A stretch of 56,281 nt of DNA from an uncultured Verrucomicrobiota bacterium. Its GTDB lineage: Bacteria; Verrucomicrobiota; Kiritimatiellia; Kiritimatiellales; Tichowtungiaceae. The stretch lies in NCBI GenBank assembly GCA_903826865.1, contig CAIKGD010000041.1, positions 1 through 56,281 on the forward strand. Reading direction: 5' to 3'. The notes beneath the pieces were generated by a model. The model was not told the DNA's origin, made no database searches, and was given only the letters and a program-made list of their open reading frames with translations. The translations under genes and the position numbers were made by a program. Shown here one piece after another: positions 2,953 to 56,281 of this stretch (positions within the stretch are counted from its first letter, which is position 1; each line of letters begins with the position of its first letter).

Positions 2953-3456
2953 ATGAAAAAACATATTCAGGCGTTCCTGTCGGAAAAAGATAATCGGCTT
3001 GTCCAGTTCATCAAATACGGAATGTGCGGCGGCGCGGCCACCGTGGTGGATGTCACCGGTTTCTTCCTCCTTGCCTGGCTGGTTTTCCCGGCGCTGACAA
3101 CGAGTGATCCTTTTACCAGACTGCTCGGCTTTCTGCACTTCGACATCCGCACTGTTTCCGAATCCGTCCGCCTGCGGAACTACTGGATCGATAAAGGCAT
3201 CTGCTTCATGTTCTCCAACTTCACGGCGTATATTCTCAACGTCCTGTTCGTCTTCAAAGCCGGTAAACATAAACGGCACCATGAACTGATGCTCTTCTAC
3301 GCCGTCTCGCTGGTTTCCTTCTTTATCGGAACATTTGTCGGTGCATGGCTCATCAAAGGCTTTGGACTCGACACGACCTATTCCTACGTTGCCGCCGCAA
3401 TTTCCTCCCTGCTCATCAACTACGCCGGCCGCAAGTTTTTCATTTTCCATGGGTAA
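2953..3456 (+). CDS. GtrA-like membrane protein
   Basis: A 167-residue integral membrane protein of the GtrA/DPMS_TMD family. Members are small four-helix proteins thought to help flip or position polyprenyl-linked sugars. Visible signs are the N-terminal VQFIKYGMCGGAATVVDV stretch, typical of GtrA, then three further hydrophobic segments, with INYAGRKFFIF at the end. There is a longer than usual loop between helices 1 and 2 (about residues 42-75). A TTG at 2917 would add 12 residues, but the ATG at 2953 fits the family N-terminus better. The stop overlaps the start of the next gene by 8 bp. The substrate is unknown. Confidence 0.85.
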   Translation: MKKHIQAFLSEKDNRLVQFIKYGMCGGAATVVDVTGFFLLAWLVFPALTTSDPFTRLLGFLHFDIRTVSESVRLRNYWIDKGICFMFSNFTAYILNVLFVFKAGKHKRHHELMLFYAVSLVSFFIGTFVGAWLIKGFGLDTTYSYVAAAISSLLINYAGRKFFIFHG

Positions 3457-4051
3457 TCAAAACCAAAAGAATGGAGAGACGGGATCCCCGTCCAAAAAAG
3501 GCTCAGGTGGAACCGAACCCTCCAAGCCGGACCGCAAACATCCGGCACATCTTCCGGTGGCGGAGGTATCCAACCGCTCAAATATCGTTTTTGTTACAGT
3601 CTGTTCCAAAGATCGGAAACCGATCTTGGCTTCACCTGAAATGCATCAACTGATTCGTAAAACTTGGTTGTTGGCGGACACGTGGCTGATCGGATGTTAT
3701 GTGATCATGCCTGATCACATCCATCTGTTCTGCGCTCCGGGGAAATATGATTATCCGCCGTTAAAAGAGTGGGTTCAGTTTTGGAAATCGTCGGTTGTTC
3801 GTGCCATGCAAGGTTACGGCCCGCTCGGCGGCACGGTCGCGGTGGAACGCGACCCTCCAGTTGGAGGGACGGCTTCCACGCCGTCCGGATTGTGGCAACG
3901 CGATTTTTGGGACACCCAGTTGCGGCGCGGCGAAAGTTACAGCGGGAAATGGGAATACGTCCGGAATAATCCTGTTCGTGCCGGCTTGGTCGCAACGCCG
4001 GAAGCATGGCCGTTTCAGGGAGAGATAAATATTTTGCGGTGGACAGAATAA
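3449..4051 (+). CDS. REP-associated tyrosine transposase (RAYT), Y1/HUH family
   Basis: 200-residue single-strand DNA transposase related to IS200/IS605 TnpA. The metal-binding HUH motif is H90-I-H92 (MPDHIHLF). The catalytic tyrosine is Y170 in KWEYVRNNPVRAGLV, a hallmark of RAYTs. No IS ends flank it, as usual for this domesticated family, whose members are linked to spread of REP palindromes. Two things are odd: residues 129-146 (VAVERDPPVGG and neighbours) are encoded by a palindromic repeat lying inside the gene, and a related triple-hairpin element begins 2 bp after the stop codon. The first 40 residues are low-complexity and may also be repeat-derived. The start overlaps the GtrA-like gene. 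Confidence 0.88.
   Translation: MGNQNQKNGETGSPSKKGSGGTEPSKPDRKHPAHLPVAEVSNRSNIVFVTVCSKDRKPILASPEMHQLIRKTWLLADTWLIGCYVIMPDHIHLFCAPGKYDYPPLKEWVQFWKSSVVRAMQGYGPLGGTVAVERDPPVGGTASTPSGLWQRDFWDTQLRRGESYSGKWEYVRNNPVRAGLVATPEAWPFQGEINILRWTE
3835..3886. repeat. Triple-hairpin repeat, family D copy 1, inside the RAYT gene
   Basis: 52 bp made of three adjacent hairpins: GGTCGC/GCGACC, CCTCCA/TGGAGG and GGACGGC/GCCGTCC. It is read in frame by the RAYT. Reading it through by hand, none of the six frames contains a stop codon. Confidence 0.8.
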
Positions 4052-4052
4052 C

Positions 4053-4102
4053 GGTTGCGACAGAGCGCAACCCTCCCGGGAGGGCGCTGCTCCGTCAGCG
4101 CC
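4053..4102. repeat. Triple-hairpin repeat, family D copy 2, between RAYT and coaB
   Basis: 50 bp with the same plan as the copy inside the RAYT: GGTTGCG/CGCAACC, then CCTCCCGGGAGG, then GGCGCTG/CAGCGCC. It starts just after the RAYT stop. Its right arm contains the last codons and the TGA of the convergent coaB gene. Confidence 0.78.
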
Positions 4103-4772
4103 GGGACTCCAAACGAATAAAAATCCTTTTAGCGCAATCCACTTTGTTGAGCGAGTTCCAGTTTTCCAAACCCTGCTTATCGATCCAGGTGAAGAGGCCG
4201 GATTCGGCGCCGAGGGTGGCGGGGGTATTCAGGACGATGCCATCCAGATTCTTGGAAACCAGTTTTTTGCGCGCCTTGGTTTCGCCGTCGTGTGTCTGGA
4301 GCGCAAAGCCGATGGCGATTTGATCTTTCCGTTTATTCGCGCAGAGCGCGGCGGCGATGTCGGGCGTCGGCTTGAGTTCAATCGTGATGTTGTTTCCAAC
4401 CTTTGGAAACTTTTCAGCCGATTTCTCCAAGGGCTGGAAGTCGGCGACGGCGGCGGCAAAGATGATGAGGTCGGCGGCGGCGAATTTCTTTTGCGCGGCG
4501 GCCAGCATTTCTTCGGCAGACGTTACGCGGGTGATATTCAGATCGGGTAGGGCGTGCTCGCCGAGCGCGCCGCTCGGACCGCTCGGCGAGCGGTCCCTGC
4601 CTGGAAGATTCGCATCCGGCACCGGCCCGGAGATGAATTCGACCTCCATGCCGCGTTTAAGCGCCTCTTCGGCGAGCGCCTTGCCCATTTTGCCGGAGCT
4701 GGCGTTACCGATGAAGCGAACCGGGTCAAAGTATTCGTGCGTCGGCCCGGAAAGGATGAGAACCTTTTTCAT
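4095..4772 (-). CDS. coaB: Phosphopantothenate-cysteine ligase (separate CoaB)
   Basis: Couples 4'-phosphopantothenate to cysteine using a nucleotide, the second step from pantothenate to CoA. The 225 residues match the CoaB half of the usual CoaBC (Dfp) fusion: nucleotide-binding SGPTHEYFDPVRFIGN at the N-terminus, the FAAAVADFQP loop near 105-114 and an LKPTPDI segment. It is a separate gene whose ATG overlaps the coaC stop by 4 bp (ATGA). Residues 57-76 (rich in G, S, P and R) are encoded by an in-frame palindromic repeat sitting in a loop. The stop codon lies inside another repeat. Last gene of the pyrH-frr-coaC-coaB operon. Confidence 0.92.
   Translation of the reverse strand: MKKVLILSGPTHEYFDPVRFIGNASSGKMGKALAEEALKRGMEVEFISGPVPDANLPGRDRSPSGPSGALGEHALPDLNITRVTSAEEMLAAAQKKFAAADLIIFAAAVADFQPLEKSAEKFPKVGNNITIELKPTPDIAAALCANKRKDQIAIGFALQTHDGETKARKKLVSKNLDGIVLNTPATLGAESGLFTWIDKQGLENWNSLNKVDCAKRIFIRLESRR
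4546..4601. repeat. Palindromic repeat core, family B, inside coaB
   Basis: 56 bp beginning GGTAGGGCG and ending GGTCCCTGCC, with nested GCCGAGCG/CGCTCGGC-type palindromes. It shares its ends and GC-rich core with the copies at 23.5, 47.6 and 52.0 kb and is translated as part of CoaB. Confidence 0.65.
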
Positions 4773-11507: not shown

Positions 11508-12044
11508 TTACTTAACGATGTTAAGTACGGATTTAAACGCCGGATCTTTGGCATCGCCGAGCAGTTCAAAAAGAACCATTTCCGTGCCGGTCAGCTTTAC
11601 TCCTTCGGCCTCCATACGGCGCAGAGCGAGCGCCTTGTTGGCCGGATCGCGCGAGGAGACCGCATCGGCAACGGCATAAACTTCGCAGCCCGATTCCAGC
11701 AGATGCATCGCCGTCTGGTAAACGCAGACATGGGTTTCGATGCCGCAGAGAATAACGTGGCGGCGGCCGGTCTTTTCCAGTGACTTCAAAAACGCCGGTT
11801 CACCGCAGCAGCTGAACGAGGTTTTGGTAACCGGAGGCGTTGTAATGAACGGCTGGAATTCATCGCGGGTCGGGCCGAGCTTTTCCGGAATCTGTTCGGT
11901 GACGATGACCGGAACATTCAGCGCTTTCATTCCTTCGAGCAGGCGGCGCAGGTTTTTAAACAGTGCATCCGCGCCGTCCGCCAGCTCTGCGAGCCGGCCC
12001 TGCACGTCGATGAAAATTAAAACGGCATTTTCTTTACTCAGCAT
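11508..12044 (-). CDS. Isochorismatase-like cysteine hydrolase
   Basis: 178 residues of the isochorismatase superfamily. The catalytic triad is visible: D13 (IFIDVQGRL), K74 (VTKTSFSCC) and C107 (GIETHVCVYQTA), with the cis-peptide region preserved. The protein is small, like YcaC and nicotinamidase-type hydrolases. Substrates in this family range from nicotinamide to carbamoyl compounds, so the exact reaction is open. Start ATG with AGGGAGGAAC just upstream. It follows nrdG on the same strand after 43 bp, but a functional link with ribonucleotide reduction is not evident. Confidence 0.88.
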   Translation of the reverse strand: MLSKENAVLIFIDVQGRLAELADGADALFKNLRRLLEGMKALNVPVIVTEQIPEKLGPTRDEFQPFITTPPVTKTSFSCCGEPAFLKSLEKTGRRHVILCGIETHVCVYQTAMHLLESGCEVYAVADAVSSRDPANKALALRRMEAEGVKLTGTEMVLFELLGDAKDPAFKSVLNIVK

Positions 12045-12087
12045 ATGTTCCTCCCTGGCGGAGACTTTTAATTTTATGATTTCTGCC

Positions 12088-12834
12088 TTACGCGCCGCGG
12101 ACGATGATTTCTTTGGCGTAAGGTTTCATGAGTTTTTCGAGCAGGCGGAGGCGGGCGGGGGTGGTGCGTTTAAGTTCGCGGAACTCCGGGCCGGGCAAAT
12201 TATCTTTCGGGATGAAAGCTTGCAGGCAGTAGCGCCGGGCGCCTTTGATGAGTTCGCCGGCCTCGAGCATCTGTTCGTCGGTGTGGAACGGCTCGATCAC
12301 GGTCGTGCGGAATTCATGATCCACGCCGCTGCTCATGATGAGTTTGACTGATTCGGCGATTTTTTCAGTGCAAGTGAAGCCGACGAGTTCAGGATAACCC
12401 GACAGCCCGGCTTTGATGTCCATGGCAATATAATCAATCAGCGGCAGACATTCTTTGAGCACTTCGGGCCGCGCGCCGTTGGAGTCTAGTTTGATTTTAA
12501 ATCCATAACTGCGGAAGAATTCAATGAGCGCGACGAGGTCCGGGGTCAGTGTCGGCTCGCCGCCGGTGATGCAAACGGCGTCAGTCCATTCTTTTTTAAA
12601 TTTGCGGCAGATTCCGTCGAGGCGGCTCCACGGCAGACCTTTCTGCTTTTTGCCCATGAGCGGGGCGTTATGGCAGAAGCCGCATGAAAAATTGCAACCG
12701 CTGGTGAAAAAAACCCCGCATAGCCGACCGGGATAGTCGATGAGGGAAGGTTTCTCTAAAAATGCGTAAACAGGTGATTCGCCTTGCGGTAGAGCCGCCT
12801 GTTTGCGCGGAGCTGCTGCTCCAGAGGACATCAT
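12088..12834 (-). CDS. nrdG: Anaerobic ribonucleotide reductase activase (radical SAM)
   Basis: 248-residue radical SAM enzyme that generates the glycyl radical on NrdD. The [4Fe-4S]/SAM motif is C47-x3-C51-x2-C54 (GCNFSCGFCHN), followed by the ITGGEPTL SAM-contact loop and DIKAGL. The N-terminal SLIDYPGRLCGVFFT stretch is typical of NrdG and related activases. The gene start overlaps the stop of the redoxin gene by 4 bp. The order nrdD-redoxin-nrdG makes the assignment firm. The first 20 residues are poorly conserved, so a start slightly downstream is possible. Confidence 0.93.
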   Translation of the reverse strand: MMSSGAAAPRKQAALPQGESPVYAFLEKPSLIDYPGRLCGVFFTSGCNFSCGFCHNAPLMGKKQKGLPWSRLDGICRKFKKEWTDAVCITGGEPTLTPDLVALIEFFRSYGFKIKLDSNGARPEVLKECLPLIDYIAMDIKAGLSGYPELVGFTCTEKIAESVKLIMSSGVDHEFRTTVIEPFHTDEQMLEAGELIKGARRYCLQAFIPKDNLPGPEFRELKRTTPARLRLLEKLMKPYAKEIIVRGA

Positions 12835-13223
12835 CCGCAGGCCTCTTCGAGGACGGCGGTGATCATCCCGGGAGAGATGACGCCTTTACCTTCGTCGCTG
12901 TAGTCGGTTTGCAGGCCGACGTACTGGTAGAGCTTTGATTTGCCGCACACGGGGTCGCGCGGCTGCGGGCTGCGGGCCTCAACCGGAACATAGCGTTCGG
13001 TTTCATCCTGACGGCGGGTGACGAGCAGGGCCGGAATCCGCTGGGGGTTGATGCATTCGGCGGAGGCGAAGGCCACGAGGCCGTCAACCGTTTCGACATC
13101 GCAGTATTCCTTCTCGAAGTCGGACCATTTTTTTTCTTCGAGCAGCTTGTCGAGGCGCTGGTTGAGCATCTTGCACTTAGCGCAGCCTTCTTTGCCGAAC
13201 ACTTTGATTTTATAAGGTTTCAT
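12831..13223 (-). CDS. Glutaredoxin/NrdH-like redoxin of the class III RNR operon
   Basis: 130-residue thioredoxin-fold protein with the redox motif C14-x2-C17 (GKEGCAKCKM) and a cis-proline segment INPQRIPALLV. The region between (EARSPQPRDPVCGKSK) is longer than in classical NrdH. It lies between nrdD and nrdG with 17-bp and overlapping junctions. Class III reductases come in formate-dependent and redoxin-dependent forms, and a dedicated NrdH-like redoxin is known for the latter (Methanosarcina type). The position therefore suggests this protein supplies electrons to NrdD. AAAGGAGC precedes the start. Confidence 0.82.
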   Translation of the reverse strand: MKPYKIKVFGKEGCAKCKMLNQRLDKLLEEKKWSDFEKEYCDVETVDGLVAFASAECINPQRIPALLVTRRQDETERYVPVEARSPQPRDPVCGKSKLYQYVGLQTDYSDEGKGVISPGMITAVLEEACG

Positions 13224-13240
13224 TGTGGAAAAGCTCCTTT

Positions 13241-15964
13241 TCAGCTTTCGACGGACACCGGTTTCTGTTCGGTACAGGACTCTGCGGTGCCAATCGCGTA
13301 TTGGCCTTTCTGCCGCGCTTTGAGTTCGCCGTAACGCTTGGATTTGTTCCAGTTCTGGATCTTGCTGAAGTAGCCGACCACGCGGGTTTCACCGACGACA
13401 TCGCCGGATTCGCAGGCGGGGCAGGTTTCGACCAGTCCGCGCACCTGATGGTGGCAGTTGTTGCAGAAGGTGAATTCGGGCGAGATGCATACTTGCGCCG
13501 ACTGCGTACGGAAGAAAGTCTCGGTCATGAGCTTCTCGATGGAAGCGGCCGACGGCTGTTCTTCGCCGACGAAGGCGTGGGTGATGGCTCCGGACTCAAT
13601 CAGGCTGTGATATTTGGCCTGCTCAACAATGCGGCCGACCAGACCGACGGGAGCGTCGGCGGTGAGGTGAATGGAGTTGGTGTAGTAGCAGACGTCTTCG
13701 CTTTCGCCTTTAACGATATCCTTGGCCTCGTCGTGAAAGTAGATGAGGTCGGTCTTGGCGAGACGGCGCGCAGCGCTTTCGGCCGGTGATTCCTCCAGTG
13801 TGAACTTGAGATTGTACTTTTTGCTGAGTTTTTTGGTCCGGGTGTACATGTGAGCCACAATACGCAGTCCGAACTGCTGGGCTTCGTCGCTGTCGTGCAA
13901 TTCCTGGCCGATCAGGAATTTCACGGTGTCGTTCACACCGATAAGCCCGATGATGTAAGTGCAGGTGTCGAGATTGACGTACGGTTTGCCGTCGCACGAT
14001 TCTTTGCCGATCTGCCAGAGCGGGTGGCCGTTGCCGCTCATCATTTCAGAAATCTTGGACTTTTTCTGCAGATGAGCCTGTGCGACGAGTTCCATCATCC
14101 GGTCGAGCTCTTCGTAGAAGTTCTGCAGAATGTCGCCGCCTTTGCGCGCCGCGCGGTACGCGGCCTGCGGAATGTTGATGGTGACGTTCTGGAAGCCGCA
14201 AAAGCGCATATTTTCGGGATGGCGCAGCATGCGGTTATCGCTGATAGTGGTACGTAAACGGCAGCAGGCCGACAGCGTGACTTCGTCGCGGTCGAAGATA
14301 AAGTAGGTTGAGCCGTTCTTTGCGGCCAGCTGGCAGGCGGCCTGATAAATCTGATACTGCTCGGGATCGGTGAAGGTCTCATCGCTGATGTGGAAGTCGC
14401 ATTTCGGGAATTCAAAAATGCGTCCGTTGCTGTCGCCGTCACCCCAGACTTCGAGCAGGGCGCGGCAGAAGTTCTGAGCTTCTTTGGTGTAGTCGCCATA
14501 CGTGACAATTTTTTCGCCGCGCGCTTCGAGGTCGGCAGCGACTGCGGGATCGTACTCAAGGCCGTCTTTTCCTTTGATTTCGCGCATGACGAGGCGCTGC
14601 GAGCCGTCTTCCTCTTCGAGGTAGAGATCCATCAGTTTATAGTTGCTGGCGTCGCGCTCGTCGCGCAGAACTTCTTCGAGACGGACGGTCAGTCCGGATT
14701 TGAGTTTGAGCATGTATTTGCCGCCCGGGCCGATGGCCGGAACGGTTTTCATATAGCCCGGAACGCCGGAGTGAATGTTGAAATCAAGAAACAGCGTCTG
14801 ACCGCCGCGGCTGAAAGCATTCTGTGAACCGTTGAAAATCAGCTCCTGAGCGATCTGTTTGAGCTCGCGGGCATTCATGCTTTCGAGGTACGGGGCATAG
14901 AGAATGTTGATGTACGCGATGCCGAGCGCGCCGGCATAGTTGGCCTGCATGGAGGCGAGAAAGGTGTTTAGGTGACCGGTCAGCACGGAGGCTGTTTTTG
15001 CCGGGCTTGATTCGGTGTTGAGATTGATCAGTCCTTTGAGGCCGTATTTTTTGACATATTCAATGGAGTGGCTGGAGCAGTAAACGCGGTGCGGATAGCC
15101 GAGGTCATGCAGATGCACAGCACCGGTGTTGTGTGCGCGTTTGATGTCGGGGGTGAAAATGGTGTCGAGCGCCCACTGTTTAAGGACGAGTTCGGCGATG
15201 CCGAGATTGACCGCTTCGGGATTGTTGTTGACGATATTGCTGTTTTCGGTGGACTTGGTGAACATCAGTTTTTCGACGTAGTCGCGCGGCACGCCGTAAA
15301 GGGAAAGATCGCGCAACTGCGCCTGATAGCCGCGCTCCGCCAGCTCATTGTTGACCATCTCGCGGATGAGCGTGGTGTTAATGGCTTTCATGTTGCTCGC
15401 GATGATGCGGTTTTCAACCGACTTCGCGATGCTGATGGCGGTGTCGACGGCCAGATCAGTTTTGTCGAGAATCTGTTTAACGATGCGCTTGCGATCCCAC
15501 GGCAGAGTGACTTCGGCAGAGGATGATTCGACCAGCAGCAGGCTGGCGTCGGTGACATCCACTTTATCTTTTTTCGTGCTGCCATCACGCACCCGGATGC
15601 TGTTGCGGGCTATTTCGCGCTGTTTGCGGTAGCGTTTGTAGGCGGCAACAACCAGCGTTTCGCCGCTTTCGGCCAGCAGAATTTCAACCAGATCCTGAAC
15701 GTCTTCGATATGGGGCGTGCGCTTATTGTCGGTTTCAGGACGCACATAAAATTCGGACTGAGGGTTGTTGAGCTGTTCAAGAACCTGCGTAGTAATTTTC
15801 GGGGCGAGGCCTTCGTTGCGCGGAGTATTCTGCTTGCGGGCGACCTCGTCGACTGCAAGGTGAATGGCCATTTCAATTTTTTTATGACTGAAAGGCACGA
15901 TCAGCCCTGAACGTTTCCTGAATCCGTCGAAAAGTGCATCTTTTGTTGTAATAGTTTCAGCCAT
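13241..15964 (-). CDS. nrdD: Anaerobic ribonucleoside-triphosphate reductase
   Basis: 907-residue class III ribonucleotide reductase making dNTPs under anoxia. The N-terminus seems to hold two ATP-cone allosteric domains (about 15-105, IVPFSHKKIEMAI; and about 150-235, VTLPWDRKRIVKQIL), more than the single cone of many NrdDs. The catalytic barrel includes SSHSIEYVKKYGLKGL and FGLRIVAHMYTRTKKL. Near the C-terminus are a zinc site (CNNC and CPAC) and the glycyl-radical loop RVVGYFS with G864. GGGAGAAC stands before the ATG. The operon continues with a redoxin and nrdG. An NrdR-like palindrome lies about 110 bp upstream. Confidence 0.96.
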   Translation of the reverse strand: MAETITTKDALFDGFRKRSGLIVPFSHKKIEMAIHLAVDEVARKQNTPRNEGLAPKITTQVLEQLNNPQSEFYVRPETDNKRTPHIEDVQDLVEILLAESGETLVVAAYKRYRKQREIARNSIRVRDGSTKKDKVDVTDASLLLVESSSAEVTLPWDRKRIVKQILDKTDLAVDTAISIAKSVENRIIASNMKAINTTLIREMVNNELAERGYQAQLRDLSLYGVPRDYVEKLMFTKSTENSNIVNNNPEAVNLGIAELVLKQWALDTIFTPDIKRAHNTGAVHLHDLGYPHRVYCSSHSIEYVKKYGLKGLINLNTESSPAKTASVLTGHLNTFLASMQANYAGALGIAYINILYAPYLESMNARELKQIAQELIFNGSQNAFSRGGQTLFLDFNIHSGVPGYMKTVPAIGPGGKYMLKLKSGLTVRLEEVLRDERDASNYKLMDLYLEEEDGSQRLVMREIKGKDGLEYDPAVAADLEARGEKIVTYGDYTKEAQNFCRALLEVWGDGDSNGRIFEFPKCDFHISDETFTDPEQYQIYQAACQLAAKNGSTYFIFDRDEVTLSACCRLRTTISDNRMLRHPENMRFCGFQNVTINIPQAAYRAARKGGDILQNFYEELDRMMELVAQAHLQKKSKISEMMSGNGHPLWQIGKESCDGKPYVNLDTCTYIIGLIGVNDTVKFLIGQELHDSDEAQQFGLRIVAHMYTRTKKLSKKYNLKFTLEESPAESAARRLAKTDLIYFHDEAKDIVKGESEDVCYYTNSIHLTADAPVGLVGRIVEQAKYHSLIESGAITHAFVGEEQPSAASIEKLMTETFFRTQSAQVCISPEFTFCNNCHHQVRGLVETCPACESGDVVGETRVVGYFSKIQNWNKSKRYGELKARQKGQYAIGTAESCTEQKPVSVES

Positions 15965-21565: not shown

Positions 21566-23431
21566 ATGAACTGGAAGGATTCACGGGTGTCCGGTAAAAC
21601 ATTCCCGATGAAATGGAATTTCAGACTTTTACTGTTGTGGACTCTTCCGGTGGCGGGGCTGACGGCGGTTTGTTTCCTCCCGGTTTTTCAAGGCGGATTT
21701 CTGGACTGGGATGACAGCAGGTTGTTTGTGCAGAATCCGTATTACCGCGGCTTGAGTCCGGTGCATTGGCAGTGGATGTGCACCACCTTTCTGATGGGAC
21801 ACTGGCAGCCGCTGAGCTGGCTGAGTTGTGCTTTGGATTATACGGTTTGGGGTATGAACCCTCACGGGTGGCATGCAACCAATCTGCTGTTGCACACAGT
21901 TAACGCCGTGCTGGTTTATCTGCTGTGTCTGGCTTTTTTGCGGCAGCGGCAATCAGAAAAGAAAACCCGCCCCGCCCTGACGGGCACCCCTCCGGCGGAG
22001 GGGTGTCCCCTCCATGGGAGGGGTGGCAGGAACGAAGTGACGGACGGGGTGGGTTGTTACGTGGTAGCGGCGCTGGCGGCGCTTTTCTGGGCAGTTCATC
22101 CGCTCCGCGTAGAGGCGGTAGCGTGGCTGGCAACCCGAGGGTATCTGCTGTGCGGAACCTTTTGTCTGCTGACGGTTCTGTTTTATCTGCGGGCAGTTAA
22201 ACAAAAGCGCTATCCCCTTATTGCGTTGCTCTGTTTTGCGCTCGCGACCTTTACTAAAGGTATCGGCATGATGCTTCCGCTGGTGCTGTTGCTGATCGAC
22301 TGGCTGGAGAAACAAGAAAGAGAGTTTGAGAGTAGAGGCGCTTGGCTGTGGTGGAGACGGCGGGTAACAGAAAAAATCCCGTTTTTTTTGCTTTCGCTGC
22401 TGACCGGTGTTGCGGCCTTCTGGTCTAAAAACACACAGGGCGGAATGGTTTCAGTCGAGCAATACCAACTGGGCGAACGCTTCGGACAGGCGCTTTACGG
22501 CATTTGGTTTTATCTGCTCAAAACTGTTTTGCCGGTCAATCTTTCGCCGCTGTATTATAAGCGGCCGGAAGCCGGACCGGTGATGATTGCCTTGGTGCTG
22601 ACAGCCGCGGTGATGGTTGCTCTTTTTCTTTTACGCCGCCGGGTACGCCCCGTGATGGTCGCGCTGGGCGCATTTTTGCTGCTGGTCTTTCCAATGCTCG
22701 GATTCACCCAGAGCGGACCGCAACTGTTTGCCGACCGTTTCACTTATCTGCCGGCGGTTCCGTTTTCCATCTTGCTGGCTGCCGGGCTGATCCGGCTGAC
22801 GGCGCTGCGCCGGTTGATCTTTGGCGCGCTGATCGTGCTGCTGCTGCTTTTCGGGGCGCAGACTGCGGTCTGGGCTGTCTCCTGGAACCATAATCTGACG
22901 CTTTGGCTGCGGGCTGCGTCAGTGGATAAAAACAATGCAGAGGCCTTTAACAACGCAGGGTTGGCATTGATGGATTATCAGCACTACGGAAAAGCACTGG
23001 AATACTTTACCCGGGCTGTTCAGCTCAAACCGGGATGTCCTTGGGCGATGCATAACCGGGCGATGGCGCTTTCAGTCATCGGTCGTTATGATGAGGCTTT
23101 TTCCGAATGGGAGATCGCGCTGGCTCTGCCGGATGTTCCCGGAGAGTTGCGTGCGAAAATGTTGCGGATGCGCGGGTGGGTTTTCGAACAAACAGGGAAT
23201 TTTAAAGCCGCAGCAGACAATTACTCAAGTGCGGTGGATGATGACAGGATTAATCCGGTGCAACGGGCCGATATTCTGCAGTTGCGCGCGGCGCTTTATG
23301 TCCGGATGGGGCAGAAAGAAAAAGCATTGGCGGACTTAAAAACAATACTCGAACTGCCGGATCTTTTTGGCGACCAGCGGCAGAAGGCACTGGCCGCGAT
23401 CAATGAGATCAGTAAGGAGGAAACTCCCTGA
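21566..23431 (+). CDS. TMTC-like membrane glycosyltransferase with TPR repeats
   Basis: 621 residues. The first 450 hold about ten hydrophobic helices with the bacterial TMTC/PMT-like pattern: WDDSRLF near 50, GHWQPLSWLSCALDYTVWG, then HATNLLLHTVNAVLVYLL. These are GT-C enzymes thought to put sugars on exported proteins from polyprenyl-linked donors. The C-terminal 170 residues form four TPR-like repeats (NAEAFNNAGLALMDYQHYGKA). Residues 133-164 are encoded by a palindromic repeat inserted in frame, probably in a loop between helices. ATGs at 21566 and 21608 are both possible starts, neither with a strong ribosome binding site. Acceptor unknown; pilins or secreted proteins are plausible. Confidence 0.78.
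   Translation: MNWKDSRVSGKTFPMKWNFRLLLLWTLPVAGLTAVCFLPVFQGGFLDWDDSRLFVQNPYYRGLSPVHWQWMCTTFLMGHWQPLSWLSCALDYTVWGMNPHGWHATNLLLHTVNAVLVYLLCLAFLRQRQSEKKTRPALTGTPPAEGCPLHGRGGRNEVTDGVGCYVVAALAALFWAVHPLRVEAVAWLATRGYLLCGTFCLLTVLFYLRAVKQKRYPLIALLCFALATFTKGIGMMLPLVLLLIDWLEKQEREFESRGAWLWWRRRVTEKIPFFLLSLLTGVAAFWSKNTQGGMVSVEQYQLGERFGQALYGIWFYLLKTVLPVNLSPLYYKRPEAGPVMIALVLTAAVMVALFLLRRRVRPVMVALGAFLLLVFPMLGFTQSGPQLFADRFTYLPAVPFSILLAAGLIRLTALRRLIFGALIVLLLLFGAQTAVWAVSWNHNLTLWLRAASVDKNNAEAFNNAGLALMDYQHYGKALEYFTRAVQLKPGCPWAMHNRAMALSVIGRYDEAFSEWEIALALPDVPGELRAKMLRMRGWVFEQTGNFKAAADNYSSAVDDDRINPVQRADILQLRAALYVRMGQKEKALADLKTILELPDLFGDQRQKALAAINEISKEETP
21964..22055. repeat. Palindromic repeat, family C copy 2, inside the TMTC-like gene
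   Basis: 92 bp from AACCCGCCCCG to CGGGGTGGGTT with the same inner CCCCTCC/GGAGGGG hairpins as the intergenic copy at 2775-2864. It is translated without interrupting the frame. Confidence 0.85.
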
Positions 23432-47592: not shown

Positions 47593-47745
47593 TGACACCA
47601 GTATCCGTATATGATCGGTATTTATTCGATTGGGTAGGGACGGCCCGCCGAGTCGTCCGCTCTCTGGACTGGCGGCGCGTTCGGCGACCGCGCCCTACCT
47701 TTGGAATGTCGCCATTTTACCGAACCTCATACGCATTTGGTATCA
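47593..47745. mobile_element. MITE-like element, family B copy 2
   Basis: About 153 bp with imperfect terminal inverted repeats TGACACCA... / ...TGGTATCA and a core GGTATTTATTCGATTGGG, GGACGGCCCGCCGAGTCGTCC, GGCGGCGCGTTCGGCGACCG shared with 23450-23599 in reverse orientation. Its right end provides the TGA stop codon of purN. Confidence 0.75.
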
Positions 47746-50791: not shown

Positions 50792-52213
50792 ATGAAATAT
50801 ATCAGTACCAGAGGACAGATGGAGCCGGTCGGATTCCTCGACGCCGTGATGACGGGGCTGGCGTCCGACGGCGGACTGCTTCTGCCCGCAAGTCTGCCGG
50901 ATGTTTCCGGCAAACTGGCGGCGTGGAAGGATCTTTCCTATCAGGAGCTGGCGTTTGAGGTGATGCGTCTGTTCGCGACCGACCTGCCGCCCGCCGATCT
51001 CAAGGCGCTGATTGAAAAAAGTTATTCCACCTTCCGCGTGCCGGAAGTGGCGCCGGTCATTCCGGTTGACGGATTCCATGTATTGGAACTCTGGCACGGC
51101 CCGACGCTGGCCTTCAAAGATATCGCGCTGCAATTTCTCGGCAATCTGTTCGAATACATTCTGCAAAAGCGCGGCGGCCGGCTGAACATTCTCGGCGCGA
51201 CCAGCGGCGACACCGGATCGGCCGCCATCTGCGGCGTGCGCGGCAAAAAAAACATCCGCATTTTTATCATGCACCCGAAAGGGCGCACCAGTCCGGTTCA
51301 GGAAAAGCAGATGACCAGTGTACTCGACGATAATGTCTTCAACCTCGCGGTCGAAGGCACGTTCGACGACTGCCAGCATTTGATGAAATCCATTTTTTCC
51401 GACGTGGAATTCAAAGAGAAGCATTCGCTCGGCTCGGTCAACTCGGTCAACTGGGCGCGGGTGCTGGCGCAGATCGTCTACTATTTCTATGCCGCCTTCC
51501 GGGTACAGGAAACCACCGGCGCGAAGCAGGTTCAGTTCGCCGTGCCGACCGGCAACTTCGGCGACATCATGGCCGGATACATCGCCGCAAAAATGGGCCT
51601 GCCGGTTAAAAAGCTGATTCTGGCCACCAACGAAAACAACATTCTCTCGCGCTTTTTCAATACCGGCGTCTACAGCATCGGCAAAGTCGTGCCGACGCTC
51701 AGCCCCTCAATGGATATTCAGGTGGCCAGCAATTTTGAGCGCTATCTCTATTACCGCACCGGCCAGAACGCCGCCAAGTTGTGCGAACTGATGAACGGCT
51801 TTGCCAAAAACAAATCGCTGACGGTTCCCGGCGCTGACGATCTTTTCGCCGCCGGCGAAGCCGGCACGGCGCAGACGCTGGCCGTGATTAAAAAAGTGTA
51901 TGAACAAGAGGGCTATACGCTTGATCCGCACACCGCCGTCGGCGTGGTCGTTGCTGAGAGATTGGGTAGGGCGATTTTGCCGAAAGCGCCGCCAGTCATA
52001 GGCTCAGACGAAGAGCGGACGGCTCGGCGATCCGTCCCTACCATTTGTCTTGCCACCGCGCACCCGGCCAAATTTACCGACGCGATTCAGCAGGCGATCG
52101 GCATCGCCGCGCACCATCCGGTGCTCGATAAACTCGCCAGTGCCGAAACCCGCTGCGACACCATCGCCAACGACGAATCCGCCGTACGCGATTATCTGGT
52201 GCGGAAAACGTAA
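50792..52213 (+). CDS. thrC: Threonine synthase
   Basis: PLP enzyme converting O-phosphohomoserine to threonine. 473 residues; the start MKYISTRG is typical of the long bacterial/fungal type. PLP lysine K109 lies in LAFKDIALQFLGN, and the cofactor phosphate loop is GATSGDTGSAA. VPTGNFGDIMAGYIA and LATAHPAKFTDAI complete the core. Residues 392-417 (GRAILPKAPPVIG... to RSVPT) do not belong to the family and are encoded by a 78-bp family B repeat, exactly 26 codons. They separate VVAERL from PTICLATAHPAK, which are adjacent in homologues. Activity may be retained if the insert forms a surface loop. Confidence 0.95.
   Translation: MKYISTRGQMEPVGFLDAVMTGLASDGGLLLPASLPDVSGKLAAWKDLSYQELAFEVMRLFATDLPPADLKALIEKSYSTFRVPEVAPVIPVDGFHVLELWHGPTLAFKDIALQFLGNLFEYILQKRGGRLNILGATSGDTGSAAICGVRGKKNIRIFIMHPKGRTSPVQEKQMTSVLDDNVFNLAVEGTFDDCQHLMKSIFSDVEFKEKHSLGSVNSVNWARVLAQIVYYFYAAFRVQETTGAKQVQFAVPTGNFGDIMAGYIAAKMGLPVKKLILATNENNILSRFFNTGVYSIGKVVPTLSPSMDIQVASNFERYLYYRTGQNAAKLCELMNGFAKNKSLTVPGADDLFAAGEAGTAQTLAVIKKVYEQEGYTLDPHTAVGVVVAERLGRAILPKAPPVIGSDEERTARRSVPTICLATAHPAKFTDAIQQAIGIAAHHPVLDKLASAETRCDTIANDESAVRDYLVRKT
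51965..52042. repeat. Family B repeat core inside thrC
   Basis: 78 bp with terminal GGTAGGG/CCCTACC and the GGACGGCTCGGCGATCCGTCC and GCCGAAAGCGCCGCCAGTC blocks of the MITE-like elements at 23.5 and 47.6 kb, but without their outer arms. Read in frame as 26 codons. Confidence 0.8.
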
Positions 52214-54229: not shown

Positions 54230-56281
54230 TTAAATCAGTGCGACTGCACTCGACAGAGCCTCGGCCAGTTTTTCGGGGAGTTTACCGCCGGCCTGAGCGC
54301 GGTCGGGTTTGCCGCCGCCGCCGCCGCCGCACTGTTTGGCGATGGCGCCGATAATTTTTCCGGCATTCTTTCCGGCTTTGACTAAATCCGGCGTAACCGC
54401 GCAGACGAGGGCGACTTTACCGTCGGAAACTCCGCCGAGGATGACGACGGCGCTGGTGAGTTTCTGTTGTAAGGCGTCCATGACGGCGCTGAGCAGTTCG
54501 GCGTCGGCTTCGCCCATGTTTTCGATGAGCAGTCCGTCTTTGATTTTGCCGAGCAGTGAATCGGCGATGGCCGGAGCCTTCGCTTGCATTTCGGCCTGTC
54601 TTTGCTTGGCGAGCTGTTTCTGCCGTTCGACTTCTTTGGCGCGTTCGGCTTCGGCGGCTCCGGCGGCTTTCTGTTCTTCGATAAACTGTTCGGCATGTTT
54701 TCCGCAGACGGCTTCGATACGGCGGATACCGGCGGCGATGGCCGATTCGCGCATGACTTTAAAGAGACCGATGTCACCGGTGTTGCGGACGTGACAGCCG
54801 CCGCACAGTTCCATGGAAAAACCGTCAAACTTGCCTTTGTGTCCGCCGAGCTGGAGGACGCGGACAGTGTCGCCGTACTTCTCGCCGAAGAACTGCTGGA
54901 TGGCCGGCTGTTTCTGAACTTCGGTGAACGGAACTTCTGTCCAAAACACCGGTTCACTGGCTTTAATCCGGTCGTTGACGAGCTTTTCAATTTTGGCGAT
55001 CTGTTCGTCGGACAGTTTTTCCGGCGAGTTGAAATCGAAGCGCATCCGTTCCGGCGCGACGAGCGAGCCGCGCTGGCGGGATTCTTTACTGACCGCTTCG
55101 TGAAGCGCCCAATGGAAAAGGTGCGTGGCGGTATGATGGCGCTGAATATCGGCGCGGCGCTCGGTATCGACATCAACGAGAACACCTTCGCCCGGTTCCG
55201 GTGCGCGTCCGCTGATGAGTTGAGCGCGGTGAACGATCAGTTCGCCCTGCCGCTGCGTATCGAGAATCTTCAGTTCGCCGATCAGTTTTTCGTCGGCGAT
55301 GAGACGGATTCTTCCGGTATCGCCGGACTGGCCGCCCATTTCGGCGTAGCAGGGGGTTTTGTCGAGGATGATGTTAAATGTGAGGCAGACGCCCTCGTCT
55401 GCCATTTTTCCGCAGGCGGGGGCGCCTGCGCCACTTTCAGGAGAAACCGCTTCAACGAGAGCTTCCGCTACGAGACTGTCGAAGCCGACGAAGACGGTCG
55501 GGTTCACTTCGAGACCTTCGCTTTCAACGGTCACGACGGTTTTCTTTTTGGCGTGGTCGGCGCGGGCACGGTTGCGCTGCTTTTCCATCAGTTTTTCAAA
55601 GCCGGCAACGTCGACAGCGAGTCCGCGTTCGCGGGCCATCAGTTCGGTAAGGTCGAGCGGGAAGCCGAAAGTGTCGTAGAGTTTGAAGGCTTCGTCGGCC
55701 GGGAAAATTGAGGTGGGGCAGACGCCCTCGTCTGCCGTTTTTCCGCAGGCGGGGGCGCCTGCGCCACAAAGAGAAGATACAACCTGCTCGAAGAGGTCAA
55801 TGCCGCGGTCGAGCGTGCGGTTGAAGCTGTCTTCTTCGGCTTTGAGGGTTTTAGTGACGCGGGCCGCATTTTTCCGCAGTTCGGGAAAAGCGTTGCCGAA
55901 GCTGTCGGCGACGGTGTCGGCCAGTTTGTAGAAGAAGGGTTTGCGAAAACCGAGCGAGCGGCCGTAGCGGACGGCGCGGCGCAGGATGCGGCGCAGGACG
56001 TAGCCGCGGCCTTCGTTCGACGGCGCGATACCGTCGGCGATGGAGAAGGTGAGGCAGCGGATGTGGTCGGCGATGACGCGGAAAGCGATATCAATGGAGA
56101 CTTGAGGCTTCAGGCTTGAGGCTTGAGGTTCCAGCGTTGAACAGTACTTCATACCGCTCATCTGTTCGAGCTGGCGGAAGATCGGCGTGAAGACGTCGGT
56201 TTCATAGTTGGAGATGACGCCGGAGAAATCCTTGAAGCCTTTGGTGCACTGGATGACGGAGCAGGCGCGCTCGAAGCCCAT
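54230..56281 (-). CDS. alaS: Alanyl-tRNA synthetase (N-terminus beyond the window)
   Basis: 683 residues are visible. The first codon shown is the internal Met of the conserved GMGFERACSVIQ motif, so the catalytic N-terminus (about 230 residues) lies outside. Seen here are the tRNA-recognition helices (RVIADHIRCLTFSIADG, GRGYVLRRILRRAVRYG), the editing domain with HHTATHLFHWAL and CGGCHVRNTGDIG zinc/editing ligands, a coiled coil, and the C-Ala oligomerisation domain ending GGGGGGKPDRAQAGG. Three in-frame insertions coded by repeats sit in loops (visible residues 49-60, 172-190, 283-301). Housekeeping and almost certainly essential. Confidence 0.95.
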   Translation of the reverse strand: MGFERACSVIQCTKGFKDFSGVISNYETDVFTPIFRQLEQMSGMKYCSTLEPQASSLKPQVSIDIAFRVIADHIRCLTFSIADGIAPSNEGRGYVLRRILRRAVRYGRSLGFRKPFFYKLADTVADSFGNAFPELRKNAARVTKTLKAEEDSFNRTLDRGIDLFEQVVSSLCGAGAPACGKTADEGVCPTSIFPADEAFKLYDTFGFPLDLTELMARERGLAVDVAGFEKLMEKQRNRARADHAKKKTVVTVESEGLEVNPTVFVGFDSLVAEALVEAVSPESGAGAPACGKMADEGVCLTFNIILDKTPCYAEMGGQSGDTGRIRLIADEKLIGELKILDTQRQGELIVHRAQLISGRAPEPGEGVLVDVDTERRADIQRHHTATHLFHWALHEAVSKESRQRGSLVAPERMRFDFNSPEKLSDEQIAKIEKLVNDRIKASEPVFWTEVPFTEVQKQPAIQQFFGEKYGDTVRVLQLGGHKGKFDGFSMELCGGCHVRNTGDIGLFKVMRESAIAAGIRRIEAVCGKHAEQFIEEQKAAGAAEAERAKEVERQKQLAKQRQAEMQAKAPAIADSLLGKIKDGLLIENMGEADAELLSAVMDALQQKLTSAVVILGGVSDGKVALVCAVTPDLVKAGKNAGKIIGAIAKQCGGGGGGKPDRAQAGGKLPEKLAEALSSAVALI
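55380..55434. repeat. Double-hairpin repeat, family A copy 1, inside alaS
   Basis: 55 bp: GGCAGAC-GCCCTC-GTCTGCC hairpin, a TTTTTCC spacer, then GCAGGCG-GGGG-CGCCTGC hairpin. Differs from the second copy at two positions. Encodes GAGAPACGKMADEGVC. Confidence 0.88.
55713..55767. repeat. Double-hairpin repeat, family A copy 2, inside alaS
   Basis: 55 bp, 53 identical to the copy at 55380. Read by alaS in the same frame and orientation as CGAGAPACGKTADEGVCPT. Checked by hand, this copy has no stop codon in any of six frames. Confidence 0.88.
56101..56137. repeat. Short GGCTTGAG tandem repeat inside alaS
   Basis: CTTGAGGCTTCAGGCTTGAGGCTTGAGGTTCC-type tandem of 8-9 bp units (read on the minus strand as CCTCAAGCCTCAAG). 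It encodes a 12-residue loop (LEPQASSLKPQV) absent from other AlaS proteins. Confidence 0.6.

Follow-up and report, generated by a model that had tools for sequence, protein, structure and literature searches.

In-frame REP hairpins inside a RAYT gene of a GGAG-tagged lineage in an uncultured Verrucomicrobiota bacterium

The 56,281-nucleotide stretch of DNA analysed here (the window) carries a RAYT (TnpAREP) gene whose reading frame contains an inverted pair of REPs, each preceded by the tetranucleotide GGAG. We propose that the locus is a REPtron (a REP/RAYT unit) of a GGAG-tagged lineage, in which the internal REPs probably persist, or are replenished, because the cognate enzyme recognises them. 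In-frame REPs located between HuH and Y are a published feature of subclass 2.4 tnpAREP genes (Quentin et al. 2018, PMC6006769), and the phenomenon itself is thus known. The idea that in-frame REPs had never been described in RAYT genes was therefore rejected, and the remark of an earlier sequence-only reading that a copy within the transposase frame is unusual held only in that a different loop is occupied here. New are the GGAG tag, the placement of the loop next to the guide-reading motif, and, in step with GTAG versus GGAG, a switch from His to Thr or Arg.

The RAYT open frame matched the NCBIfam family NF047646, “REP-associated tyrosine transposase” (E 1.2e-24, 86.9 bits for a cut-off of 80), and showed no Pfam match at E 0.001. 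With E 9e-8, the best PDB match of the predicted model was 4ER8, a complex of TnpAREP and a REP hairpin. The protein combined an HUH motif and a single catalytic tyrosine with the Y1 transposase fold, as expected of a RAYT/TnpAREP. H90-I-H92 and Y170 had been read as intact, in agreement with the invariance of H90, H92, and Y170 among relatives. In the E. coli TnpAREP the guide-interacting residues are W94, Q95, E100, H101, and R104 (PMC6006769), and their counterpart was located through the 4ER8 alignment. No other RAYT of the REP type was found in the genome. A distant Y1-type protein also encoded there (locus L279, 1333-1962; genome G000, contig C9, 51149-51577) showed the motifs NHYHF and KYVHQNP and resembled RAYTs without REP linkage.

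Table 1. Position of the RAYT gene, its motifs, and the neighbouring GGAG REPs in the window.
Feature	Position	Strand	Remarks
RAYT (TnpAREP) gene	3449..4051	+	200 aa, open frame intact
Decayed GGAG REP	3500..3523	-	N-terminal coding part (GSGGTEPS); 5/7 pairs left
HUH motif H90-I91-H92	3716..3724	+	invariant among relatives
Inverted REP pair in frame	3835-3886		starts within codon 129, ends within codon 146
Embedded REP	3835..3858	-	GGAG-GGTCGCG ttccac CGCGACC; identical copies on contigs C9, C57, C60, C69
Embedded REP	3863..3886	+	GGAG-GGACGGC ttccac GCCGTCC; identical copies on contigs C9, C57, C60, C64, C69
W149-Q150 ... D155-T156	3893..3916	+	counterpart of the E. coli guide-contacting motif, via 4ER8 alignment
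Catalytic Y170	3956..3958	+	invariant among relatives
REP past stop codon	4053..4076	-	GGAG-GGTTGCG ctctgt CGCAACC
REP past stop codon	4079..4102	+	GGAG-GGCGCTG ctccgt CAGCGCC; forms the 3' pair with 4053..4076

The embedded element reads GGTCGCG-gtggaa-CGCGACC / CTCC-AGTT-GGAG / GGACGGC-ttccac-GCCGTCC, i.e., two hairpins with a 7-bp stem and a 6-base loop each, separated by CTCC-AGTT-GGAG. As the loops GTGGAA and TTCCAC are reverse complements, each REP consists of GGAG followed by a 20-base hairpin, and its length of 24 nt corresponds to exactly eight codons. A three-hairpin element encoding residues 129-146 had been proposed. The in-frame element was confirmed at these codons, but the triple hairpin as a unit was discarded in favour of two GGAG-tagged 24-nt inverted REPs with facing tags, the middle “stem” being mostly the two tags. 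The second element (GGTTGCG-acagag-CGCAACC / CTCC-CG-GGAG / GGCGCTG-ctccgt-CAGCGCC) followed the same plan, as had been noticed; it starts one base past the TAA stop codon (4049-4051) and not 2 bp after it. DNA folding of both elements gave z values of -2.6 to -2.9 on both strands. The minimum free energy structure of 3835-3886 showed three stems, and in 4053-4102 the middle part paired otherwise. An Rfam search over the embedded element returned no match.

A REP pair lies at the 3' side of the RAYT gene, and at its 5' side only the decayed REP inside the coding part was seen. The 3' pair was also present after the RAYT of G003, a genome of the same genus with a RAYT at the same locus, after a GtrA-like gene; in its N-terminal coding part, G003 in addition has an intact inverted REP pair close to the position of the decayed REP. 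The embedded REPs belong to the TTCCAC loop class and those after the gene to the CTCCGT class. The similarity of the internal REPs of the window to their own flanking REPs was 0.62, versus 0.78 to those of other loci, and owing to this mismatch the cognate REP of the window enzyme is uncertain. In the predicted model, the loop encoded by the embedded pair lies between helix C (105-120) and strand 4 (154-157), with a mean pLDDT of 62 and 73 for residues 131-150, marking a lower-confidence loop. Codons 129-146 end three residues ahead of W149-Q150, which correspond to W94-Q95 in E. coli.

A genome-wide count, which had been suggested as a check, confirmed that the motif recurs. The pattern GGAGGGN5YTYYRYN5CC, which imposed no stem pairing, gave 32 exact matches in the 2.64 Mb assembly and 0 with the reversed-pattern control. 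Twenty-four of them had a TTCCAC loop and eight were of the CTCCGT type, and most were in inverted pairs with a short spacer, scattered over the genome in the manner of REPINs. Across the genus, all five variable stem pairs were intact in 78 of 96 matches, with 18 different stems, and 28 of the 46 distinct matches were perfectly paired, versus 1.6 with shuffled arms. The tags face each other in 3835-3886, whereas they are outside in the REPs of the same class on contigs C9, C57, C60, C64, and C69. The facing arrangement of 4053-4102 recurs at C48:93221 and in genomes G002 and G013; the latter has such REPs yet no RAYT match.

Other repeats were observed in the window. CCCTCC..GGAGGG proved misleading as a lone search motif: most of its 64 sites in the genome probably belong to another family, seen in the window at 2771-2850 and 21961-22040, with two tandem CCCCTCC..GGAGGGG hairpins within CCCCGCC...GGGGTGG. 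Two 68-nt copies, 88% identical, were located at 55380-55447 and 55713-55780 with two hairpins each (GGCAGACGCCCTCGTCTGCC and CGCAGGCGGGGGCGCCTGCG).

Internal REPs were searched for in 112 distinct RAYT ORFs with complete anchors, from public genomes and from the class of the window genome, an internal REP being counted when a perfect G[GT]AG hairpin was found inside the RAYT core. Thirty-two of the 112 ORFs contained in-frame REPs, 67 in total, a prevalence biased by the third region list, part of which was picked for long gaps; in the subset picked by protein similarity alone, 20 of 54 RAYTs were carriers. In the GGAG lineage, the internal REPs occurred between HUH and WQxxFWD, in the helix C/strand 4 loop, and the HUH-to-W distance was 57-149 residues in carriers compared to 37-46 in most non-carriers. 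Three RAYTs (L125, L132, and L194) had long loops devoid of perfect REPs and look decayed. In L132 and L125, from Kiritimatiellae, degenerate repeats occupy the same loop (AARVDARPPVAARADARPP...); they are probably REP arrays too decayed for the strict search to detect. A mostly Clostridia clade, from which the GGAG lineage of the window stood apart in the tree (99/97), carried GTAG-tagged REPs in two other loops, usually as one inverted pair, and these matched REPs dispersed in most of the genomes concerned. The copy number may differ between close relatives, as the sister RAYTs L208 and L258 showed an in-frame difference of one 66-nt unit. The RAYT seen as L200/L218 (genome G116, contig C7, about 12000-13400) has eight in-frame REPs in one loop and sits in a 1396-aa open frame also holding a second RAYT match.

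The internal REPs resembled the flanking REPs of their own locus, with a similarity of 0.894 versus 0.726 after permutation, and 0 of 5000 permutations was as high. Among rows chosen for pairing, the internal REPs were 100% paired, with both sides changed at five of the seven pairs. In an example pair of genes, the identity at third codon positions was 1.00 in the REPs versus 0.46 elsewhere (p 1.5e-5). Similarly, in Clostridia pairs the third positions were mostly identical in the REPs and near 0.4-0.5 in the remainder. The opposite trend was seen in L122/L223 and L199/L207 (Verrucomicrobia/Kiritimatiellae), where the REPs were swapped for others that still pair. The perfection of the hairpins despite stem changes, the usual match with the flanking REPs, and the third positions kept in several pairs suggest that the internal REPs persist, or are replenished, because they serve as recognition sites and not for the peptide they encode. 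Most of these conservation data could be explained either by selection for the site or by renewal through conversion.

We propose the following model. The RAYT probably acts as a HUH/Tyr nuclease on single strands, recognising a hairpin preceded by GGAG, and it would process or move GGAG REPs via single-stranded DNA. An inverted REP pair would have inserted in frame between helix C and strand 4, into a loop where 24-nt stop-free REPs are tolerated. The same loop is filled in several related lineages, with the copy number shifting by in-frame steps, and the internal copies would be maintained by renewal or selection.

Another explanation, to which we give an even chance, is that the internal REPs are neutral debris. 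REPs would preferentially land near their own transposase gene, only the in-frame, stop-free copies situated in flexible loops would survive, and these functionless copies would be renewed by gene conversion or re-insertion. Identical REP copies are indeed present elsewhere in the window genome, and the REP loop is of low confidence in the model. In-frame REPs also occur in unrelated genes: the aconitase AcnA (L077 3982-4031, contig C60; 895 aa) has an in-frame inverted GGAG REP pair in a linker; this site is a short PTG loop in most relatives and holds a different insert in G010. Intragenic REPs have been published for many proteins (PMC3733652), and internal REPs were proposed to affect activity little (PMC6006769). 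On the other hand, several lineages have filled the same loop with perfect hairpins of differing sequence, and the Clostridia-clade pair, mostly a single inverted one, occupies two fixed loops with conserved third positions. In G358, moreover, the internal pair represents the sole two pattern matches, which by that pattern leaves no donor for renewal.

CoaB (4095-4772), the gene adjoining the RAYT, contains a REP pair of another kind at 4547-4600, with GTAG and GCAG tags, in a loop where relatives have other inserts or none. Short inserts differing between the window and loci L098, L099, L102, and L107 make this loop a hotspot for tolerated insertions in the genus. The CoaB pair is one of three such pairs in the window, with 47634-47698 and 51966-52041. 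All have stems of 9 bp, a GCC loop, and tags that are mostly GTAG, and the window genome yielded no RAYT cognate to them. The RAYT of G010 (L034) is flanked by such GTAG/GCC-loop REPs, and the window copies are apparently orphans.

The internal and flanking REPs could also be cis-regulatory sites, bound by the RAYT in single-stranded DNA or mRNA and limiting its own expression. This would fit the usual match between internal and flanking REPs and the third positions conserved in several pairs. In the Clostridia clade, none of the 18 loci with an internal REP had a canonical inverted pair, one REP on either side of the gene, in 400-500 bp flanks, and the reverse was seen in L173 and L178, which lack an internal REP and possess a canonical flanking pair. 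This either/or pattern comes from few loci with flanks of that size, and the activity of E. coli TnpAREP is documented on single-stranded DNA, not on mRNA; we consider such a regulatory role rather unlikely. Our confidence is similarly low in a stricter proposal, in which the internal REPs are functional cis-elements, a RAYT needing its own hairpin pair either flanking the gene or within the coding sequence, and the loops are permanent slots for them.

Same-genus RAYTs devoid of the extra loop exist and allow the comparison with homologues without the insert that had been suggested. In G003, the FWK-to-WQ distance is 15 residues compared to 35 in the window RAYT, a difference of 20 codons. The sequence flanking the embedded pair fails to align with G003, and for this reason a clean insertion is not claimed: judging from the sequences, the loop may have originated by insertion plus change or by exchange with another RAYT. 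An exchange is suggested by the segment RAMQGYGPL of the window protein, which resembles that of REP-carrying RAYTs elsewhere (RALRGHGPL in L111 and L112). The gene could thus be a mosaic whose loop came from a TTCCAC-type RAYT, no insertion having taken place in the window gene itself. The motif RA..G.GPL before the REPs is common to L111, L112, and L200, and less closely to L138 and L194, and the loops are TTCCAC inside the gene and CTCCGT after it. The identity to G003 was 86.5% in the C-terminal half and 63% in the N-terminal half, but a similar contrast between halves in other relatives may reflect rate variation. The tree, moreover, groups the window RAYT with G003 and L216 (96/86), and a mosaic origin seems improbable to us. 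Chance palindromes resulting from codon usage in a GC-rich gene can be dismissed with near certainty, although the window has other hairpins of similar length, since synonymous shuffling removed the REPs (mean 1.1, maximum 4 in 100 shuffles, versus the 67 observed) and the same REPs recur in intergenic DNA.

Without any tag being imposed, GGAG was the commonest 4-mer preceding hairpins (191 of 452). The guide tetranucleotide GT[AG]G was absent from the lineage of the window, which has GGAG throughout, and related RAYTs within the same genus use GTAG. The earlier suggestion that the enzyme mobilises the coding-embedded repeats may hold for the copies in the RAYT and aconitase genes, as this is the sole REP-type RAYT seen in the genome and its lineage is associated with GGAG REPs, but the differing loop classes inside and after the RAYT gene and the GTAG pair in CoaB do not fit it. 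Directly behind the acidic residue in the guide motif (at E. coli H101), a His was present in every one of the 23 RAYTs that have GTAG REPs, and a Thr or Arg in 41 of the 42 RAYTs with GGAG REPs. This contrast mostly follows deep splits of one tree, and it is a lead for a specificity swap rather than a proof.

The mostly Clostridia clade of the survey resembles subclass 2.4 tnpAREP. In that subclass, it is the stretch joining strand 3 to helix C that varies, remote from the surface that binds DNA, and the REPs have a GT[AG]G guide (PMC6006769); the loop of the window RAYT is instead between helix C and strand 4, with GGAG, near where the same report places REP recognition. The neighbourhood of the window lineage differs as well. 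In REPINs and BIMEs (PMC3116915, PMC2817692), too, two REPs lie inverted within a few bases of each other, in dispersed copies and near a RAYT. They differ by their GT[AG]G tag from the GGAG REPs of the window genome, which are in low copy (32) with strongly varying stems; in addition, the RAYT-borne pairs have facing tags here, whereas most other pairs have tags outside. The intragenic GTAG/CGTC REPs and Rickettsia palindromic elements (PMC3733652) are also in-frame palindromes in linkers and loops of unrelated proteins, but the tyrosine transposase genes of that report only have REPs overlapping their 5' or 3' end, and the tags differ. E. coli TnpAREP (4ER8; PMC8266576) shares the HUH and Tyr core and the WQ...[DE]...R guide motif with the window RAYT, and is 19% identical to it in the structural alignment. 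It has GTAG, a bulged hairpin, no REP loop, and a His in place of the Thr of the window RAYT. Published REP searches used GTAG, GTGG, or CGTC tags. “GGAG” did not occur in the main text of the REP papers checked for the word, and in the open-access literature, to which our search was confined, no description of GGAG-tagged REPs of RAYTs was found.

If the stricter proposal, of internal REPs as functional cis-elements, were correct, the hairpins in the coding slots would evolve with the specificity of the enzyme, and the same DNA would be both protein sequence and the binding site of that protein. RAYT genes with in-frame REPs bear on the questions of how RAYTs retain their REPs and what binds the two together. 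As the REP sequence can be recoded synonymously with the protein unchanged, genes with internal recognition sites offer a clean test. The His-to-Thr/Arg change of the GGAG lineage at the guide-contacting position would allow a simple specificity swap, and a REP search that admits GT[AG]G alone overlooks a lineage that is common in this class.
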